This document shows, piece after piece, positions 52,534 through 62,603 of a DNA stretch of 64,000 nucleotides. The notes below the pieces were generated by a model that searched no databases, was not told the DNA's origin, and saw nothing but the letters and a program-made list of their open reading frames with translations. The stretch spans positions 186,001-250,000 of the forward strand of contig NZ_QVID01000001.1 of NCBI RefSeq assembly GCF_003413745.1, read 5' to 3'. Source of the DNA: Marixanthomonas ophiurae. GTDB lineage: Bacteria > Bacteroidota > Bacteroidia > Flavobacteriales > Flavobacteriaceae. The number at the start of each line of letters is the position of its first letter. The stretch's first letter is position 1. The translations under genes and the position numbers were made by a program.

Positions 52534-53688
52534 TTAATATTCGTCATACTCGTCTCCAAAGTTGAAAGTCAATCCAAAACGAAGTGTTCCTTCTAGTGGA
52601 CTTCTTACTTTTGAAGTTGAGAATAAATAAGAAATATCGATATTAATAGCAGTGTATTTAAATCCTGCACCTAACGAAAGGAATTTTCTAAATCCTTTGT
52701 CCTCACTTTCGTTGAAATACCCTAGACGGAATGCAAATACATCTTGGTACCAATACTCAGCACCTAATGCCCAAGTAAATTCTTTTAATTCTTCTGAAAA
52801 ACCATCTGGCGCATCCCCGAAAGAAGAGAAAATACCACTAAAGAAACTTTCATTGTAATAATCATCTTCACGATCTATAACACCATCATCGTTTGAATCG
52901 CTTGGAGTTGGCACTAACAGTTTATTAACCTCAGCACTAACGCCTATTTTATTGTATTCGTCTAAGATAAAATCGAAACCACCACCTAATGCTAAGTTGG
53001 TTGGCAGGTTGTTTTCCTGACCTGACTCGTCATATTTAAGCTTAGGACCAATGTTTGAAAAATTGAATCCACCTCTCCAACGACCATCAAAATCGTTGTA
53101 AGGAATTTCCTCACTTTGGTAATAACCAGCTACATCTACTGCAAAAGTATTAGCAGCATTCGCATCTGCAACTGATGTTTGTAATTTAAGATCGGAACGA
53201 ATATACCTACCAGCAATACCCATAGAAAAACGATCACTCAAACGAAGTGAATATGATACATCGAACATTAATTCATTAGGCTTAACTAATAAAGGTTCTT
53301 GATCTGCTGTCTCTCTTAATTCAATTTCACCATTACTAAAGTAACGAAAACTAGCACCAACAGCACTACGCTCATTTAATCTGTTGTAATAAGTTATGTT
53401 TCCTAAAAAGATATCGTTTACCAATTTGCTTAAGTATGGTGTATACGTTACTCCAATTCCTTGTTTAGAAATAGCAAAAGCATATTTAGCGGGGTTCCAC
53501 TGCTGCGAAAAAGCATCAGCAGAAGTTGTTACACCAATATCTCCCATACCTGCTGAACGTGCATCACCAGATATAAGCAAAAAAGGAACACCTGTTGTAA
53601 TTACCCGTTGCGTGGTTACATCTTCGTCTTGGGCAACAGCATTGTAGGATAATAAAACGATTAAAAAAGGTAAAAATATTTTCTTCAT
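52534..53688 (-). CDS. porV: type IX secretion system outer membrane protein PorV
   Basis: The 384-residue protein is an FadL-type barrel that carries T9SS cargo to PorU for cleavage. The signal peptide (about 1-19) ends NAVAQ. The N-terminal plug segment GVPFLLISGDARSAGMGDIG, read in pieces, is the family hallmark (SARGAGMGxxG-like), and the later barrel strands end FGLTFNFG. PorV and PorU are encoded side by side, as in F. johnsoniae. Between them, in a 35-bp gap, is a -7 box. Confidence 0.93.
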   Translation of the reverse strand: MKKIFLPFLIVLLSYNAVAQDEDVTTQRVITTGVPFLLISGDARSAGMGDIGVTTSADAFSQQWNPAKYAFAISKQGIGVTYTPYLSKLVNDIFLGNITYYNRLNERSAVGASFRYFSNGEIELRETADQEPLLVKPNELMFDVSYSLRLSDRFSMGIAGRYIRSDLKLQTSVADANAANTFAVDVAGYYQSEEIPYNDFDGRWRGGFNFSNIGPKLKYDESGQENNLPTNLALGGGFDFILDEYNKIGVSAEVNKLLVPTPSDSNDDGVIDREDDYYNESFFSGIFSSFGDAPDGFSEELKEFTWALGAEYWYQDVFAFRLGYFNESEDKGFRKFLSLGAGFKYTAINIDISYLFSTSKVRSPLEGTLRFGLTFNFGDEYDEY

Positions 53689-53723: not shown

Positions 53724-56700
53724 TTAAAGGATAACTAGTTTTTCAAATTTTTCAGTTTGCTTATTGGTTAACGTAGATTTAACTGTAATCTTATATACAT
53801 ATACACCTTTTCCTATTTTATCTCCAAAATCATCCCTACCATCCCATACAATATCGCGAGAAAGGAAGCCATCGGTGTTAATAATTTGATTTTTGGTCCA
53901 CACCACTTTTCCAGTTACAGTAAATACCTGAACCTGCACTTCCAAAGGTTCAAAAGGCCGGTTATGATTAAACCAGAACTCGGTATAGTTAACAAATGGG
54001 TTAGGGTAGTTTAATACTTTTGTAATTTTTAATTCATCATCTCCAGCCACTATAAATTGTATTTCAGATGTAGAAGAATTATTATATACATCCCAAGCTT
54101 TAAATGTTAAGGTGTGCAGTCCTTTCTCAAGATCCCGTAATTGGTAATTAGTGATTCCTTTGGTATAATCGTCTTTTTCTGCTTGATAATAATCATTCAC
54201 CACTATTGGATTGGACTCATCACCATCTAAAATTGCAATCATATCGTGGCCAATACCACTAGCTGTATTAATACCGTTTTCATCTTCCAGTTTTGCAATG
54301 AGAATAGGAGAGGCATTTGTAACACCACCTGAAACAAAACTTTCATCATTCATAAACAAATTTACAGTTGGCCCTTGATTATCTTCAGGAGCATTTTCAT
54401 TAATTCCTCCTATTTGCACCGAAAGATCGACTCCTGCTTGATCCTCCAAGGCATTATCTTCTTCAGTATAAAAATTGACACGTCCTGTTCCTACCGGTAT
54501 TTGTATGTCTCTAGGCACGACAAATTCAAATTCAAAATTACCGTTAGCTACAGTTGCTTGTCCGTTGAAAAGGGTTTCGCCTAAGGTGGTAAAATCCAAC
54601 ACAAATCCTTGCGCATCGTTATCCAAAGTTTGTCGCTCCAATCGTTTATCAAAAACTTTTGCAGAAAGCACGCCATTATAATTAGTGAGCACATTGCCGT
54701 TTTCATCAACCACTTCACCGCCCATTTTTACCTTACCCAAGGCTTGCAATACATCTGGCGATTGACTTACAGGAACATCATTTATAGTGGTTAACCGTAC
54801 GTTTTTCTTAGGAAAGGCTAATTGCATGGCCGGGTCACCTATATAGAAAACTACCCGGCGAAGGTTACTGCTTATATCATTTTTGGCAATTCGTAAAGCC
54901 TCTGCAGGGGTTTCGGGCACATTCAAACCATAACCAAATAAATGGGGTGCTAGTTTTTCATTAAATTCAACACCTAAGAATAGTCCAATAGAACGGGTTG
55001 TGCTAACCAATGATATAGCCCCACCTTCTTTATTCCAATAGGTAAGTTCCCCGGCTGTTATACGCTGAGGATTATCAAATTTAGTGAATTGACATGTTAT
55101 AGTAACAATACATGGATACCTGTCTTTGTTTTTTAAATTACTACCTAAATCTTTAGTGTAGATAAATTCATGTGCCAATCCATCTTCCCCGCCGTGGCCA
55201 AAATAGTTTACAATTAAAGCCCCTACTTCTATATTGTTTTTTATGTCTTCGTTTACCTGCGGATATCGATCGCCTCCAGAAGAGGATTGTTGTTGATATG
55301 CATCAATATGAATTTTCTTTACATTGATAAACGGCTTTTCAGCTGAAATTTGATCCCCCAATGCATCCAACTCGATTTCAAGCTCTTCTTCTCCAGATTT
55401 ATCCACGTCATCTGAAATCAGCATAAAATTATTTCGCCAGTTCCCGTATGATTCCTTTGAAGAATACGCTATAACTTTATCTACCAAAGTATTGGCTAAG
55501 CTAACCTCATCGGCCAATATCCTACCCACGGCAATATCAAGTCTGTCAATATCCGTAAGACCTTCACCTAAAGCATTTAAAGTCTTTCCACCTATGGTAC
55601 CTTCATTTGCATCCATGTTTCCGAAAAAATCATCACTCATAAAGGAAGTTACATCACTGGTACTTGAAAGGGTATGAAAAGTCGGCACAATGTTATTATT
55701 GCCTGATAGTCGGTTTTTGTAATCTACTGATGTATCACCAAAAAGACAAAGGTATTTTATTCGTTTATCGGATGAGGAAGCATTATTGTATATATACCGA
55801 ACAAAATTTCTTATAGCGCCAATATCTTGTTTCCCAGAACTGAACTCTTCATATATTTTATCTGTGGTTACCACTTTTACATTGAGACCATATAAATTTT
55901 TGTTGTGATTAGCAAGGCGCAGTGCAGGTTGCAATAAAAAAGGAGCTGTGACAATCAAGTAATCTACATCTTGAAAGGAACCAGACTCCCCGTTAAATAC
56001 CGAGCCCTTTAGATTTTGGTTAAACACCCTTGGTTGGTTTATTTTTACTGGGGTATTGTAATCATTTGTATGTACGGCTACATACTTGCGAGCTGTTCCT
56101 AATATTGCTTTAAAAGCAAGATTTGATGCATTGTTTTCGTTTTGTTTTTCCGAAATAGAGCCCGGATTGGTAACATCCCATATTTCGCTTATCTGTGCTG
56201 TATTGCTTACCTGATACTCCCCTATTCCACTTAGGTTAGAAGCTTGTTTATAAGTAAAAGTAAGTTGTTTATCGGTAACAGATAGCTGGCGGGTTGCCTC
56301 TACACTTACATAGTCTAAATAACCAACACTAGATGGATTTCCTGCATTATTATAGGAAAGATCCACAGTAACAGTTTCTCCAGCAACAGGAATTTGTCCT
56401 TGAGCTTTGCTTAATTCTCTAACGGATAAAACGATACTTTCACCTGTGAGCGCGCTAAAAGTTAAGGGGTTTAAACTGGTTCCATTTATTGAAACGGCCA
56501 GCGATGTAGCTGTTTCCGAAACAGCACCCGCTCTAACAGCCACCTGCATACTTGTTGACGGAACTATATTCGGGAAAGTAAACTCGTAGGTTTGTTCACT
56601 TTCAAAATCAAAACGATTCCCAAACCAGCGTCTTCCAACTTTTCCAGGAGAATATTCGTCTAGTTCGTGAAATTGGTAGTCTTGAAATGAAGTAATGGTA

Positions 56701-57599
56701 GTTGTAGGCGCTCCAGATGGCTCTATCATGGCCTGTACTCGTTTTCCAGTACCACCATCAGCAGTAATGTAATAATAGGAGTCGTCGCTATATGGATTTA
56801 AATTAGTTTGGTTTTCAGGATCATAACCTTTCGTGCTTGTTCCATAAAAGAGAATATAGTCACCATTATCAAAAGAACCATCTTCCCCTCCAATTACCTT
56901 TATAGATGTTTCAGGGAGATCAAATTCAGTATTTAAAGAGTTAAGTAAAGGTAGCGGCTTACCACCATGACCATATATTTTTAGGTTTTGAGGGTTTATA
57001 TTACTAGTGTTTATTCCTAAATCCTCCAAAAAAGATTTATCAATACGGTGTATGCCGTTTTCTTCTACTTTAAACTTAAACCAGTCACCGGTTGCTAATA
57101 CCGAATTGGTTATAGGCATCCTAAAATTACCCATTCTATTTTGTGCTTTCTTTTTATAAGAAACAGAAAATGATTTTACCTTTCGCAATAGCCCGTTCAC
57201 CTTTACTACAGGTGATAAAGAAACCGAAGTATAAATTATGTCCCGCGCCTTACTACTATGAATGGAGTAAGTGAGCTTTTCTGGAACTAGATCCTTATTT
57301 ATTTTTTGAAGCTCTTGCGTTGTTAACGCTCCGTAGGATACATTGGATATTTCAATAGAACTTTCATCAGCAAAACCTGTGTCTTTCCATTGGTTTTGAT
57401 AAATCAATTGGTCCTCATTAATAGTAAGCCTAAGGTGATCAAAATTGTCTTTTTTTAAGGCACTTTTATCATTTATAGCCGATACAGAGCTAGATGCTTT
57501 TCGGGTATCACCCCATTGTATTGTAATATTCTTGGTTTGTGCCAACAATAAAAACGGCAATAAAACAATTGAAATAAGAAGTATTGTTTTTTTCATCAT
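53724..57599 (-). CDS. porU: type IX secretion system sortase PorU
   Basis: The roughly 1,290-residue gingipain-like C25 peptidase cuts the CTD from T9SS cargo at the cell surface. The signal peptide is within the first 22 residues. The catalytic His is at about residue 802 (NYFGHGGEDG) and the Cys at about 836 (ITCQFTKFDNP), 34 residues apart, close to the 33 of the P. gingivalis enzyme as I remember it. The C-terminus is a CTD-like FlgD fold (NYPNPFVNYTEFWF, GKGVYVYKITV). A TTG upstream (57605) would add two residues; an ATG was chosen. Confidence 0.95.
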   Translation of the reverse strand: MMKKTILLISIVLLPFLLLAQTKNITIQWGDTRKASSSVSAINDKSALKKDNFDHLRLTINEDQLIYQNQWKDTGFADESSIEISNVSYGALTTQELQKINKDLVPEKLTYSIHSSKARDIIYTSVSLSPVVKVNGLLRKVKSFSVSYKKKAQNRMGNFRMPITNSVLATGDWFKFKVEENGIHRIDKSFLEDLGINTSNINPQNLKIYGHGGKPLPLLNSLNTEFDLPETSIKVIGGEDGSFDNGDYILFYGTSTKGYDPENQTNLNPYSDDSYYYITADGGTGKRVQAMIEPSGAPTTTITSFQDYQFHELDEYSPGKVGRRWFGNRFDFESEQTYEFTFPNIVPSTSMQVAVRAGAVSETATSLAVSINGTSLNPLTFSALTGESIVLSVRELSKAQGQIPVAGETVTVDLSYNNAGNPSSVGYLDYVSVEATRQLSVTDKQLTFTYKQASNLSGIGEYQVSNTAQISEIWDVTNPGSISEKQNENNASNLAFKAILGTARKYVAVHTNDYNTPVKINQPRVFNQNLKGSVFNGESGSFQDVDYLIVTAPFLLQPALRLANHNKNLYGLNVKVVTTDKIYEEFSSGKQDIGAIRNFVRYIYNNASSSDKRIKYLCLFGDTSVDYKNRLSGNNNIVPTFHTLSSTSDVTSFMSDDFFGNMDANEGTIGGKTLNALGEGLTDIDRLDIAVGRILADEVSLANTLVDKVIAYSSKESYGNWRNNFMLISDDVDKSGEEELEIELDALGDQISAEKPFINVKKIHIDAYQQQSSSGGDRYPQVNEDIKNNIEVGALIVNYFGHGGEDGLAHEFIYTKDLGSNLKNKDRYPCIVTITCQFTKFDNPQRITAGELTYWNKEGGAISLVSTTRSIGLFLGVEFNEKLAPHLFGYGLNVPETPAEALRIAKNDISSNLRRVVFYIGDPAMQLAFPKKNVRLTTINDVPVSQSPDVLQALGKVKMGGEVVDENGNVLTNYNGVLSAKVFDKRLERQTLDNDAQGFVLDFTTLGETLFNGQATVANGNFEFEFVVPRDIQIPVGTGRVNFYTEEDNALEDQAGVDLSVQIGGINENAPEDNQGPTVNLFMNDESFVSGGVTNASPILIAKLEDENGINTASGIGHDMIAILDGDESNPIVVNDYYQAEKDDYTKGITNYQLRDLEKGLHTLTFKAWDVYNNSSTSEIQFIVAGDDELKITKVLNYPNPFVNYTEFWFNHNRPFEPLEVQVQVFTVTGKVVWTKNQIINTDGFLSRDIVWDGRDDFGDKIGKGVYVYKITVKSTLTNKQTEKFEKLVIL

Positions 57600-57613
57600 A
57601 ATCAATAACGCGT

Positions 57614-57734: not shown

Positions 57735-57760
57735 ATCAATAATAATAAAATATTATTGAT
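57735..57760. repeat. AT-rich palindrome upstream of gldJ
   Basis: ATCAATAATA (57735-57744) and TATTATTGAT (57751-57760) are perfectly inverted, 10 bp each, around ATAAAA. It sits between the divergent porU and gldJ genes, 53 bp before the first gldJ start. It could be an operator or an mRNA leader hairpin, but AT-rich palindromes arise often by chance here. Confidence 0.4.
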
Positions 57761-57813
57761 ATTATCCCGTTAATTATTATATTGCAAACCCAATTTTATT
57801 CATAAATCTAACT

Positions 57814-59493
57814 ATGAACATAAACAAAACCTTAGCATTACGTCTATTTATAGCATTGATTACAACTAGTTTACTTATAAGTTGTAACAATTCTAGGGAC
57901 TATAAAGACAGTTCCCGTGCAACTGGTTGGAAGATGAACGCCAAAGAAGGTGGTTTTAAATACAACCCTAAAGCCAAGGAACAAGAAACTGGTCCCGGTC
58001 TTATATTTATTGAAGGGGGTACCTTTACCATGGGTAGAGTACAAGACGACCCAATGCACGATTGGAATAACACTCCAAACCAACAGCACGTTCAATCCTT
58101 TTACATGGACGAGACCGAAGTTACCAACCTTATGTACCTCGAATATTTAGATTGGTTAAAAAGTGTTTTTCCTCCTTCTGACGAAAATTACCGTCAAATA
58201 TACGAAGGTGCTTTACCAGACACCTTAGTATGGAGAAACCGATTAGGGTACAATGAAGTTATGACCAATAATTACTTACGCCACCCCGCTTATGCAAATT
58301 ATCCGGTAGTAGGAGTTAGTTGGATTCAAGCTGTGGAGTTCAGTAAATGGAGAACAGACCGTGTTAACGAATTTATTCTAGAAGAAGAAGGCTATACGGC
58401 AAGAGGTGCCCGTTATGATGTTGAGCCAGGCGAAACCTTCAGCACACAAACATACCTAAATGCCCCAACCAAAACATATGGTGGAAAAGATTCCATTACT
58501 AGAGGTGGAAGCCAATCAGAACGAATAGCAGAACGAAGCGAAGACAGCACCAACTTGTACGTACAACGTAAAGATGGATTACTGTTACCTGGCTATCGTT
58601 TACCTACTGAAGCTGAATGGGAATACGCCGCTCTTGGATTAGTGGGACTTAGAAACTACAATGTTTACCGAGGCCGAAAAAAATATCCTTGGGATGGACA
58701 ATATACACGTTCTGACAAAAGAAGAAGTCGTGGTGACCAATTAGCCAACTTTAAACAAGGCGATGGTGATTATGGTGGAATTGCAGGATGGAGTGATGAT
58801 GGCGCCGATATAACAGCCGAAGTAAAGTCGTACGAAGCTAATGATTTTGGCTTATATGATATGGCAGGAAACGTAGCCGAATGGGTTGCCGATGTATACC
58901 GCCCAATTGTTGACGATGAATTTAATGATTTTAACTACTATCGTGGAAACGTATATACCAAAAACGCAATAGGTGAAGATGGAAAGGTTAAAATAGTAAC
59001 ATCAGACTCTATTGTATATGATACATTAAGTAATGGTAGGATTGTTGCTAGAAATCTGCCCGGCGAAATTTTACAAGTACCCGTGGGCGAAGAAGAAACA
59101 TACCAACGAACTAACTTCTCAGAAAGTGACAACCGTGATTTTAGAGATGGAGACAAACGATCTTCTCGCAGATATCAATCTTTTGCAGATGAATTTAGCA
59201 CTGACGATGAAAATGAAGAAAACCGGATGTATAATTCACCTAAAAATCGCGTGCTTACTGATAGTACCGGTCAAGTTGACATGCAATACGACCAATCTAA
59301 TAGACGTACTACTTTAATAGACAACGAAGTAAGAGTATATAAAGGAGGATCATGGCGAGATAGAGATTATTGGTTAGATCCTGCTCAAAGACGCTATTTC
59401 CCTCAAGATATGGCAACCGATTATATTGGATTTAGATGTGCGATGTCCCGTGTGGGCTCAAAATCTAAAAAAGGGAAACGACCTAGAAATTAA
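57814..59493 (+). CDS. gldJ: gliding motility lipoprotein GldJ, copy 1
   Basis: The 559-residue lipoprotein (lipobox LISC, Cys24) is required for gliding and for stable GldK in F. johnsoniae. It has the FGE-sulfatase fold: IEGGTFTMGRVQDDPMHDW (about 67-85), FYMDETEVTNLMY, YRLPTEAEWEYAALG and the C-terminal YKGGSWRDRDYWLDPAQRR. Only one Cys (GFRCAMSRVG) lies in the C-terminal core, so formylglycine-generating activity is not expected. A second, very similar gene follows 117 bp later. porU-porV lie on the other side, the expected T9SS context. Confidence 0.93.
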   Translation: MNINKTLALRLFIALITTSLLISCNNSRDYKDSSRATGWKMNAKEGGFKYNPKAKEQETGPGLIFIEGGTFTMGRVQDDPMHDWNNTPNQQHVQSFYMDETEVTNLMYLEYLDWLKSVFPPSDENYRQIYEGALPDTLVWRNRLGYNEVMTNNYLRHPAYANYPVVGVSWIQAVEFSKWRTDRVNEFILEEEGYTARGARYDVEPGETFSTQTYLNAPTKTYGGKDSITRGGSQSERIAERSEDSTNLYVQRKDGLLLPGYRLPTEAEWEYAALGLVGLRNYNVYRGRKKYPWDGQYTRSDKRRSRGDQLANFKQGDGDYGGIAGWSDDGADITAEVKSYEANDFGLYDMAGNVAEWVADVYRPIVDDEFNDFNYYRGNVYTKNAIGEDGKVKIVTSDSIVYDTLSNGRIVARNLPGEILQVPVGEEETYQRTNFSESDNRDFRDGDKRSSRRYQSFADEFSTDDENEENRMYNSPKNRVLTDSTGQVDMQYDQSNRRTTLIDNEVRVYKGGSWRDRDYWLDPAQRRYFPQDMATDYIGFRCAMSRVGSKSKKGKRPRN

Positions 59494-59508
59494 AAGATTT
59501 TTGTATTC

Positions 59509-59545
59509 AAAAAAAGCCTTGAATTATTAATTCAGGGCTTTTTTT
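59509..59545 (+). terminator. strong rho-independent terminator between the two gldJ genes
   Basis: AAAAAAAGCCTTGAATT (59509-59525) pairs with AATTCAGGGCTTTTTTT (59529-59545) with one G-U position, followed on the plus strand by T-rich DNA. It ends the transcript of copy 1, so copy 2 is likely to have its own promoter. Confidence 0.9.
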
Positions 59546-59610
59546 ATATTTATTCGTTAACAAATTCAATTTTTTTTTAACTTGCTACTTGAATAAGATG
59601 TGAGTTCCCT

Positions 59611-61278
59611 ATGATAAAATTTTTACGAAACTACTTATTACTCCTGTTTTTAGTCTTGTTATGCACAAACTGTAGTAATTCTAGGGATTACGATAAAAAC
59701 TCACGTGCTACTGGATGGAGTGCTTTTGGACGGCAAGATGGCTCTAAAACGAATAGAAAAATTCAGATAAAAGAACAGGAAACCGGTCCCGGTTTGGTAT
59801 TTATAGAAGGAGGAACTTTTACAATGGGCCGCGTGCAAGATGACCCAATGGGTGACTGGAACAATACACCTAACCAACAGCACGTACAATCGTTCTATAT
59901 GGATGAGACAGAAGTAACCAACCTCATGTATCTAGAATACCTGGATTGGTTAAAAAAAGTATTTCCTCCAGAAGAAGAAAGTTTCAGAAAAATCTACGAA
60001 GGTGCATTACCAGATACGCTAGTTTGGAGATCCAAATTAGGATTTAACGAGGTAATGGCTAATCAATATTTACGACATCCAGCTTTTGCCGAATACCCTG
60101 TAGTTGGTGTTAGCTGGATTCAAGCAGTTGAATTTTCAAAATGGCGCACCGACAGAGTCAATGAGCTTATATTAGAAGAAGAAGGTTTTATTCAAGAAAA
60201 TGTTCGGTATAATAGCACGCCAAGTTCTGTGTTTACTACCGAGACGTATTTAAAAGCGCCAACACTTACCTATGGCGGTAATGATAGTATAACTGGAGGA
60301 AGTGAGCGCTCTCAAAAAATAGCCCAACGAGGCGACAGCACACAAATATTTGCAAGAAGAAAAGATGGAATTTTGCTTCCCGCCTACCGTCTCCCTACTG
60401 AAGCAGAATGGGAATATGCCGCGCTTGGTCTTGTAGGAATACGAAACAAAAACACCTATAAAGGAAGAAAAAAATATCCTTGGAACAGTCAATACACTCG
60501 ATCGTTAAAACGTAAAAATCGAGGAGATCAATTGGCAAACTTTAAACAAAGGGATGGTGATTATGGCGGTATTGCTGGCTGGAGTGATGATGGCGCAGAT
60601 GTTACGGCTCAAGTTAAATCATATAAATCAAATGATTACGGACTTTATGATATGGCTGGAAATGTAGCCGAATGGGTTGCCGATGTATACCGTCCAATTG
60701 TAGATGACGATTATAATGATTTTAATTATTACCGTGGAAATGTCTATACAAAGAACAAATTGGACGAGAATAGAAACATACAGGTAATCACTCCCGAAAC
60801 AATTGAGTATGACACGCTACCAAACGGTAAAGTAGTTGCCACAAAATACCCTGGAGAATTAGTAACAATACCTGTTGACAAAAAAGAGACCCATCTTCGT
60901 ATTAATTTTTCAAAAAGCGACAATAGAGATTATAGAGACGGCGATAAACTTTCGTTACGCTACAATCCTGCTTTTTCCGATACAGATTCTGATGGTAATG
61001 AAAGAAGAATGTATAACTCCCCTATTTATAAAATGCAAGTTACAGATGATGGTTCTATAAAACCAGAATACGATCATTCCTCACAAAGAAGAACCCTGAT
61101 AGACGATGAAGTACGAGTTTACAAGGGAGGCTCTTGGAAAGACCGCGATTATTGGCTAGACCCTGCACAGCGTAGATACTTACCACAATATATGGCCACT
61201 AATTATATTGGTTTTCGATGTGCTATGTCACGAGTAGGCTCTAAATTCAAAAAGAAAAACAAACGGCCCACACATTAA
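59611..61278 (+). CDS. gldJ: gliding motility lipoprotein GldJ, copy 2 (tandem paralogue)
   Basis: The 555-residue product is clearly homologous to copy 1 over its whole length: NNTPNQQHVQSFYMDETEVT, WIQAVEFSKWRTDRVNE and KGGSWKDRDYWLDPAQRRY are identical or nearly so. Differences cluster after the signal peptide, in the loop at about 190-240 (SERSQKIAQRGDST versus copy 1) and in the stretch at about 385-500. The lipobox is LCTNC (Cys21). It may be redundant or specialised; which copy is the functional orthologue cannot be told from sequence alone. murF follows 62 bp later. Confidence 0.88.
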   Translation: MIKFLRNYLLLLFLVLLCTNCSNSRDYDKNSRATGWSAFGRQDGSKTNRKIQIKEQETGPGLVFIEGGTFTMGRVQDDPMGDWNNTPNQQHVQSFYMDETEVTNLMYLEYLDWLKKVFPPEEESFRKIYEGALPDTLVWRSKLGFNEVMANQYLRHPAFAEYPVVGVSWIQAVEFSKWRTDRVNELILEEEGFIQENVRYNSTPSSVFTTETYLKAPTLTYGGNDSITGGSERSQKIAQRGDSTQIFARRKDGILLPAYRLPTEAEWEYAALGLVGIRNKNTYKGRKKYPWNSQYTRSLKRKNRGDQLANFKQRDGDYGGIAGWSDDGADVTAQVKSYKSNDYGLYDMAGNVAEWVADVYRPIVDDDYNDFNYYRGNVYTKNKLDENRNIQVITPETIEYDTLPNGKVVATKYPGELVTIPVDKKETHLRINFSKSDNRDYRDGDKLSLRYNPAFSDTDSDGNERRMYNSPIYKMQVTDDGSIKPEYDHSSQRRTLIDDEVRVYKGGSWKDRDYWLDPAQRRYLPQYMATNYIGFRCAMSRVGSKFKKKNKRPTH

Positions 61279-61340: not shown

Positions 61341-62603
61341 ATGACTATTAAAAAGCTTCATCAAGAATTTTTAACGAGCAGCGGTATTTGCACCGATACT
61401 CGAAAAATTAAAAAAAATTGTCTCTTTGTAGCCCTTAAAGGTGACAACTTCAACGGAAACACCTTTGCAGCCGAAGCCATAAAAAAAGGAGCATACAAAG
61501 TTGTTATAGATGAAAGTGAATATCAAAATGACCAAACTATTTTGGTTAAAAATGGTTTGATAGCACTGCAAAAGCTAGCTACTTTCCATAGAAAGCAGCT
61601 TAAATTGCCAATACTGTCCTTAACCGGAAGCAACGGGAAAACCACCACCAAAGAGTTAATAAATGTAGTCCTTTCAAAAAAATTCAACACGGTTGCCACT
61701 AAAGGGAATTTAAATAACCACATTGGAGTTCCGCTTACATTATTATCGATGACTTCGGAAACTGAATTTGGTATAGTTGAAATGGGCGCCAACCACTTGC
61801 ACGAGATAGAAAGCCTCTGCCAAATTGCTCAGCCTGATTATGGTTACATTACTAACTTCGGAAAGGCTCATTTAGAAGGCTTCGGGAGTATGGAAGGCGT
61901 TGTAAAAGGTAAGTCAGAACTGTACCGTTATTTAGAAAGCCATTCAAAAACGGTTTTTGTGAATGGAAATGACACCAAACAATTGGAATTGACCAAAAGT
62001 TTGGATCAAGTTGTTTTTAACGATACCATCATTCAACTAATGGATGCTTCAAATGAAGTAAAAGTCAAATTTCGAAATACCGAAATACAAAGTAAACTTG
62101 TCGGGCTATATAACTACGCTAATATAGCAGCGGCCATTGCCATCGGTAATTATTTTAATATTTCCGAAGAGCATATTAAAGCAGCTATTGAAAGCTATAT
62201 TCCGCAGAATAATCGTTCACAGCGCATTGAAAAAGCAGGTCACAAAATACTATTAGATGCTTATAACGCCAACCCTACTAGTATGATGGCAGCTTTGGAA
62301 AATTTTAAGCAAGCTGAAGGCAACAACAAAATTTTAATCCTGGGTGATATGTTTGAAATGGGAACGGAAGCTGAAAAAGAACACCAACACATTGTTGCTT
62401 TTTTAGAAAGCAATCCTTTCGGAAAAGCTTATTTATTAGGCAGTAATTTCAAAAAAACAAACAAAAAAGCTGCTCATATCTATACATTTGAAAGTTTTGA
62501 TGACTTTAAAAAGCAGATTAAAGTTGAAGATTTCAAAAATTGTTTCTTCTTAATAAAAGGATCTAGAGGGATGGCTCTTGAACGAATTTTAGATTTGCTT
62601 TAA
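61341..62603 (+). CDS. murF: UDP-N-acetylmuramoyl-tripeptide--D-Ala-D-Ala ligase
   Basis: The 420-residue Mur ligase adds D-Ala-D-Ala to UDP-MurNAc-tripeptide. The N-terminal ICTDTRKIKKNCLFVALKGDNFNG, read in pieces, is the uridine site; the P-loop is GSNGKTTTKELI (about 95-106); TKGNLNNHIGVPLTLL and YNANPTSMMAAL are MurF-type blocks. It is slightly shorter than E. coli MurF, as is common here. The downstream hairpin is absent; tRNA-Val lies 20 bp further on the other strand. Confidence 0.93.
   Translation: MTIKKLHQEFLTSSGICTDTRKIKKNCLFVALKGDNFNGNTFAAEAIKKGAYKVVIDESEYQNDQTILVKNGLIALQKLATFHRKQLKLPILSLTGSNGKTTTKELINVVLSKKFNTVATKGNLNNHIGVPLTLLSMTSETEFGIVEMGANHLHEIESLCQIAQPDYGYITNFGKAHLEGFGSMEGVVKGKSELYRYLESHSKTVFVNGNDTKQLELTKSLDQVVFNDTIIQLMDASNEVKVKFRNTEIQSKLVGLYNYANIAAAIAIGNYFNISEEHIKAAIESYIPQNNRSQRIEKAGHKILLDAYNANPTSMMAALENFKQAEGNNKILILGDMFEMGTEAEKEHQHIVAFLESNPFGKAYLLGSNFKKTNKKAAHIYTFESFDDFKKQIKVEDFKNCFFLIKGSRGMALERILDLL

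Follow-up and report, generated by a model that had tools for sequence, protein, structure and literature searches.

A second, divergent GldJ in tandem with gldJ in Marixanthomonas ophiurae

A 64,000-nucleotide stretch of the Marixanthomonas ophiurae genome (contig NZ_QVID01000001.1, positions 186,001 to 250,000; hereafter the window) carries two genes in tandem for GldJ, a lipoprotein of the gliding and type IX secretion machinery. The first copy (J1) is the orthologue of the GldJ usually present once, and the second (J2) belongs to a divergent clade that we name GldJ2. On balance, we lean towards reading J2 as an old GldJ paralogue that would serve as a second, lower-dose subunit of the gliding track with altered contacts.

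Two GldJ lipoproteins between porU and murF

57814..59493, + strand: gldJ copy 1 (J1), 559-residue lipoprotein with an FGE-like domain, clustering with the single-copy orthologues of species neighbours
59611..61278, + strand: gldJ copy 2 (J2), 555 residues, in a clade of its own that joins second copies found elsewhere

Both products scored well above the curated cut-off (458.2 bits) of the GldJ model TIGR03524, with 960.8 bits for J1 (model positions 1–559) and 881.4 bits for J2 (model positions 9–556). The FGE-like domain PF03781 was likewise found above its cut-off of 23.3 in both copies (139.2 and 134.6 bits), and each has a lipobox cysteine (J1 Cys24, J2 Cys21) in an invariant alignment column, as read from the columns and not by a signal-peptide predictor. 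The pair also lies where gldJ is expected, beside porU and murF: J1 adjoins porU, J2 sits between J1 and murF, and porU and porV are upstream in divergent orientation. Reading frames and model scores thus agree with an earlier note, made from the letters of this DNA alone, that had described two complete GldJ lipoproteins of 559 and 555 residues in tandem near porU/porV. The two proteins are 70% identical (387 of 551 aligned residues), with 68% identity in DNA and 46% at third codon positions; the block WIQAVEFSKWRTDRVNE, which the note had given as identical, does occur in both. Membership of the GldJ family is established for J1 and J2; J2 may have a different role.

The neighbouring genes are as follows.

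53724..57605, − strand: porU, type IX secretion sortase, divergent neighbour (NF033707, 1386 bits)
52534..53688, − strand: porV (NF033710, 555 bits)
61341..62603, + strand: murF, the usual gene downstream of gldJ (TIGR01143, 366 bits; gldJ–murF adjacency seen in relatives)

A 94-residue open reading frame (ORF) in another frame within gldJ copy 1 (59033–59317) is most likely spurious.

Phylogeny and distribution of the second copy

In the main tree, built from 87 of 107 GldJ rows (20 left out), the seven J1 rows of the genus formed one clade (support 100/99) and the seven J2 rows another (100/100), giving the two separate clades for which the earlier note had proposed to look. A pairing of the copies only within the strain, which that note would have taken as the sign of a recent redundant duplication, did not occur; a strain-level duplication is rejected by the grouping of each copy with its own kind across seven genomes. 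In this tree J2 joined not J1 but the second GldJ copies of two other genomes (G024 and G067; G numbers denote genomes and L numbers loci). When nine more Aequorivita copies were added, the GldJ2 clade comprised 19 rows at 100/99 (enlarged tree of 52 chosen rows, without the second copies of G804 and G805 and with only the N-terminal piece of that of G808), with the ordinary GldJ proteins from the Aequorivita / Marinirhabdus / Altibacter group as its sister (88/93). On 303 conserved-core columns (50 chosen rows, without the second copies of G787, G808, G804 and G805), the GldJ2 clade remained at 99/96 with 17 rows. J2 and the second copies of other genera therefore stand apart from ordinary GldJ both over the full length and in the core. 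A clade of J1 and J2 confined to the genus was rejected over the full length, though not on the core columns, by the approximately unbiased (AU) test, with full-length p 0.021 without the other second copies (40 rows) and p 8.9e-7 with those of G024 and G067 (44 rows).

Both copies were present in all seven genomes examined from the genus, in the order porU / J1–J2 and then murF where the contig extends that far. Among the best 80 named loci for J2 of the matches listed, a set that shows only the tandem form, dispersed copies being invisible in these stretches, there was one pair (UBA3356, of the same genus) and 79 loci with a single copy in the stretch examined, all 79 scoring higher against J1 than against J2. 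The murF ORF was recovered in 76 of these 80 loci; L084, L114, L128 and L142 failed that filter. Of 395 genomes sampled from the family, GldJ was detected in 389 at E 1e-90, with a second match in 11 of these: four from the genus, three with a full-length dispersed copy (G024, G067 and G327) and four that were artefactual or unclear. The last four were not taken as paralogues: G376 has two equal-scoring copies mirrored on one contig, a likely assembly artefact; G328 has a single gene in two frames; G332 has two contig-edge pieces, from which one cannot tell; and G341 has two gldJ–murF loci in one bin, probably from mixed strains. A class sample gave a match in 318 of 396 genomes and two matches in three (G000, G568 and G673), with G568 and G673 as the other double-gldJ cases. 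Among 395 relatives, many of them overlapping the other samples, 349 matched and eight were double, namely six of the genus together with G024 and G067. No genus but this one showed the tandem form in the family samples.

Elsewhere the second copy is dispersed. In Aequorivita it was found in 12 of 28 genomes, away from gldJ, and in all 12 it lay near a homologue of one and the same neighbour gene (the G024 locus and 11 compared with it). A third genus had it in two of 11 genomes, in one case as two contig-edge pieces. GldJ2 is probably present in named strains of Aequorivita aquimaris and A. xiaoshiensis. The second GldJ of A. aquimaris (L157:7426-9792) shares a contig with gldJ, at a distance of about 121 kb, and the gene after it on the same strand encodes a 198-residue protein with a lipobox-like start. 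The second GldJ of G327 (L159:7474-9129) is genuine, dispersed and full length, but is placed elsewhere in the tree than the GldJ2 clade, grouping with the GldJ of Galbibacter and Robertkochia.

A quick tree of porV, porU, murF and pdhA placed the genus next to Luteirhabdus / Thermobacterium and within the Aequorivita / Marinirhabdus / Altibacter group, as J1 does. With the genus in that position, either the intervening lineages lost GldJ2 or GldJ2 moved. The trees and distribution together suggest one old duplication kept patchily, or else transfer.

One gldJ copy is the rule in the samples searched, in line with the single-copy view of the earlier note, but two copies in one genome had already been reported for Cardinium cSfur (PMC6147030). 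In the literature searched, from which most subscription papers fell outside, this was the only report of two gldJ genes, and no divergent GldJ paralogue was found, which is weak evidence of absence. The Cardinium copies are identical (PMC6387759), in contrast to the divergent, tandem and genus-wide pair described here; they were duplicated as part of a segment that also holds five other genes, and the endosymbiont genus concerned has lost most gliding genes. Closer in form is G568, from another family of the class, which likewise has a tandem gldJ pair before murF (L172:6150-9264). Its copies are each other's closest relatives (100/100), marking an independent duplication. At L172, porU and the first gldJ are separated by an ORF that looks PorP-like from its start.

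Divergence, constraint and possible expression signals of J2

The regions in which J1 and J2 differ were gauged against 48 orthologues of 66–74% overall identity. Identity was 33% in the N-terminal arm (z −1.8), 50% in the loop at residues 193–258 (z +1.2) and 36% in the C-terminal tail (z −1.2). The only clear excess of divergence was at residues 382–505 (46% identity, z −2.9), which at a guess correspond to a B-loop insertion, while in residues 56–192 J2 is less different from J1 than orthologues are (z +2.8). The earlier note had singled out the post-signal arm and a loop near residues 190–240 (193–258 here); both do differ between the copies, but to roughly the extent seen among orthologues of equal identity, and the excess lies at 382–505. 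Of the positions conserved to 95% or more across 89 family rows, J2 has only three fixed for another residue. The tails are distinctive within the genus, being GKRPRN in J1 and NKRxxH in J2 in seven of seven genomes each.

Within the genus, the median ratio of nonsynonymous to synonymous substitution (dN/dS) was 0.026 for J1, from the 17 usable pairs of 21, and 0.049 for J2, from 11 of 21, these being simple Nei–Gojobori (NG86) values with high dS and hence rough. Nonsynonymous divergence was greater in J2 than in J1 in all 21 pairs, by a factor of 1.86–3.87 (median 2.91). As judged from these values, purifying selection on J2 is strong. The synonymous distance between J1 and J2 was at or near saturation in all seven genomes, so that the identical protein blocks reflect constraint and not recent gene conversion. 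Codon bias was weaker in J2 than in J1 in every genome of the genus (7/7), a hint of lower J2 expression. A functional split between the copies would be compatible with these differences in rate, constraint and region.

Three elements accompany the two genes.

59509..59545, + strand: intrinsic terminator-like hairpin separating J1 and J2 (17 pairs, four of them G–C, then a T run)
59564..59584, + strand: conserved element ATTCAATTTTTTTTTAACTTG after the terminator, possible J2 promoter
57756..57785, + strand: promoter-like TTG-N19-TATATTGC upstream of J1, conserved in 7/7 genus genomes

The hairpin, which bears out the terminator placed between the copies by the earlier note, is kept in seven of seven genus genomes, and in an alignment read by eye both its arms had changed together in G302, as paired changes. 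The element ATTCAATTTTTTTTTAACTTG is nearly unchanged in all seven genomes, each with TAACTTG within it, while its flanks vary, and J2 may therefore have its own promoter at 59564–59584. Both this element and the one upstream of J1 would match the Bacteroidetes promoter consensus and are putative promoters.

A proposed second track subunit and its alternatives

The GldJ of Flavobacterium johnsoniae is the natural point of comparison. J1 and J2, like it, pass TIGR03524 and have a lipobox cysteine and an FGE-like domain, and the porU / gldJ / ligase neighbourhood is the same (PMC7440613). Unlike in F. johnsoniae, there are two copies here, and J2 has a different N-terminal arm, 382–505 stretch and tail. 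The related FGE-like lipoprotein GldK (PorK) belongs to the same track: its model matches J1 and J2 below its own cut-off, and PorK chains were the best solved-structure matches of J1 (2e-35). GldK is a separate family with its own locus and an RGC loop cysteine, which is present in the M. ophiurae genome and in G049 and G301. The GldJ cross-match gave one main GldK locus per genus genome, with one further weak match in G302.

In published work, the track is modelled as a GldJ–GldK–GldN filament in which disulfide bonds hold SprF and PorG to GldK (PMC12635249); GldK is unstable when GldJ is lost, and GldJ truncated after residue 548 or 553 still allows secretion but not gliding (PMC8444969); and deletion of the last eight residues of GldJ reverses motor rotation (PMC12239597). 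We envisage that gldJ was duplicated once, no later than the base of the Aequorivita / Marinirhabdus / Altibacter group, giving rise to the GldJ2 subfamily. This would have settled beside gldJ in this genus and at a single different, likewise conserved, position in Aequorivita; other neighbours would have lost it, or it would have passed from lineage to lineage. J1 and J2 would both reach the outer membrane as lipoproteins, face the periplasm and form part of the GldJ–GldK–GldN track driven by GldLM motors, J1 as the main subunit and J2 as a second, probably less abundant one made from its own promoter. The core of J2 would pack like that of J1, and its own insert, perhaps with its tail, would make a locally different contact in the track. 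The co-assembly, the lower dose and the altered coupling of J2 are points that we infer; since J2 keeps the core and changes mainly residues 382–505, a second track subunit with altered contacts is the simplest reading.

Several results weigh against this reading. With the AU test restricted to the 303 core columns, a genus-only J1+J2 clade was not rejected (p 0.082), and long-branch effects may for that reason still contribute to the tree. The patchy presence of GldJ2 requires several losses or transfer. Shared residues are by themselves weak support for uniting J2 with the other second copies: of 41 sites that separate J1-type proteins from J2, 12 have the J2 residue in the Aequorivita copies too, and at two of these (442 and 504) it is also the outgroup majority, while the unrelated G327 paralogue shares it at six (counted from the table). 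In pairwise counts, three J2 rows shared 3–6 derived residues with the G024 or G067 copies and 2–4 with that of G327. Single-copy GldJ tails vary widely, and the tail of J2 is no further from that of J1 than many orthologue tails are. AlphaFold2 models from alignments of 47 and 48 rows were too poor to use (mean pLDDT, the predicted local distance difference test score, 43.3 and 42.2).

Of the alternatives, a plausible if doubtful one is that J2 is a dosage or backup copy with the function of J1, kept since more GldJ helps and under looser constraint as the minor copy. J2 is after all in the same family and domain class as J1, its dN/dS is only about twice as high, it retains nearly all family-invariant residues, and its N-terminal arm, 193–258 loop and tail fall within the range of orthologues of equal identity. 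Such a copy is harder to square with its retention in seven of seven species at saturated synonymous distance without conversion, with its uneven divergence (more than 48 orthologues show in 382–505, less in 56–192) and with a tail of its own throughout the genus. Horizontal transfer of J2 into the genus (or into Aequorivita), where it would have landed beside gldJ through homologous recombination, we consider unlikely. It would account for the patchy distribution and for the second copy of the third genus, which joins those of Aequorivita (100/98) though the ordinary GldJ proteins of the two are not sisters; the locus is, however, shared within Aequorivita and J2 holds the same place in all seven genomes of the genus, so any transfer must be old. 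We think it slightly less likely again that the duplication took place on the stem of the genus and that the fast-evolving J2 was drawn to the Aequorivita second copies by long-branch attraction. The restriction of the tandem form to this genus within the family samples, the fast evolution of J2 and all other second copies, the core-only AU result and the few derived residues that they share all speak for it, but the full-length AU tests reject the clade that it predicts, support stays at 100/99 once ten Aequorivita rows break the branch, and the independent fast paralogue of G327 stays outside the GldJ2 clade.

Two more specific roles fare worse. GldJ2 might regulate the gliding / type IX motor as a component of it, the J2 tail replacing the eight residues whose loss reverses rotation in F. 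johnsoniae, so that in a mixed track the J1:J2 ratio sets direction or the coupling of gliding to secretion. We regard this as very improbable, the idea being weakened by the wide variation of single-copy tails and the unexceptional z score of that of J2. Slightly more remote still is a role for J2 in the movement of a distinct adhesin or cargo that has another SprF-type protein as its carrier, although genomes of the genus carry one to five PorP/SprF-family proteins each, and most carriers in the loci read adjoin adhesin-like ORFs, three of them of more than 3500 codons. A SprF with twin cysteines was found in G000, G236 and G302, and the carriers found lack them in G049 (1/1), G300 (2/2), G301 (2/2) and the 55%-complete G299 (1/1), yet J2 is kept in all seven genomes. 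In Aequorivita, where PorP/SprF proteins were counted at E 1e-25, the numbers overlap, with three to four carriers in the 12 genomes with J2 and one to four in the 15 without it (one of the 15 being 69% complete; G791 was set aside because it gave no GldJ match). Retention of J2 follows neither twin-cysteine SprF nor, visibly, carrier number, both of which tell against a cargo role, and in the track model cited above SprF attaches to GldK and not to GldJ.

As a separate observation on these carriers (L232:3190-4194, L234:12868-13821 and L236:15778-16740), some genomes within one genus have a SprF-family protein with a C-terminal Cys-x-Cys beside an adhesin-like ORF, and in other genomes of the same genus every carrier seen ends in PRFF. 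The species may differ in their ability to glide.

GldJ is regarded as a core subunit of the moving track, and its C-terminus as what sets motor direction. Read as a second track subunit, a conserved GldJ with its own 382–505 stretch and tail offers natural variants with which to test which GldJ surfaces matter, and the J1/J2 pair bears on mixed-polymer tracks and on whether gliding can be separated from secretion. If GldJ2 is present in named Aequorivita species, as gene position suggests, such work may be possible in culture.

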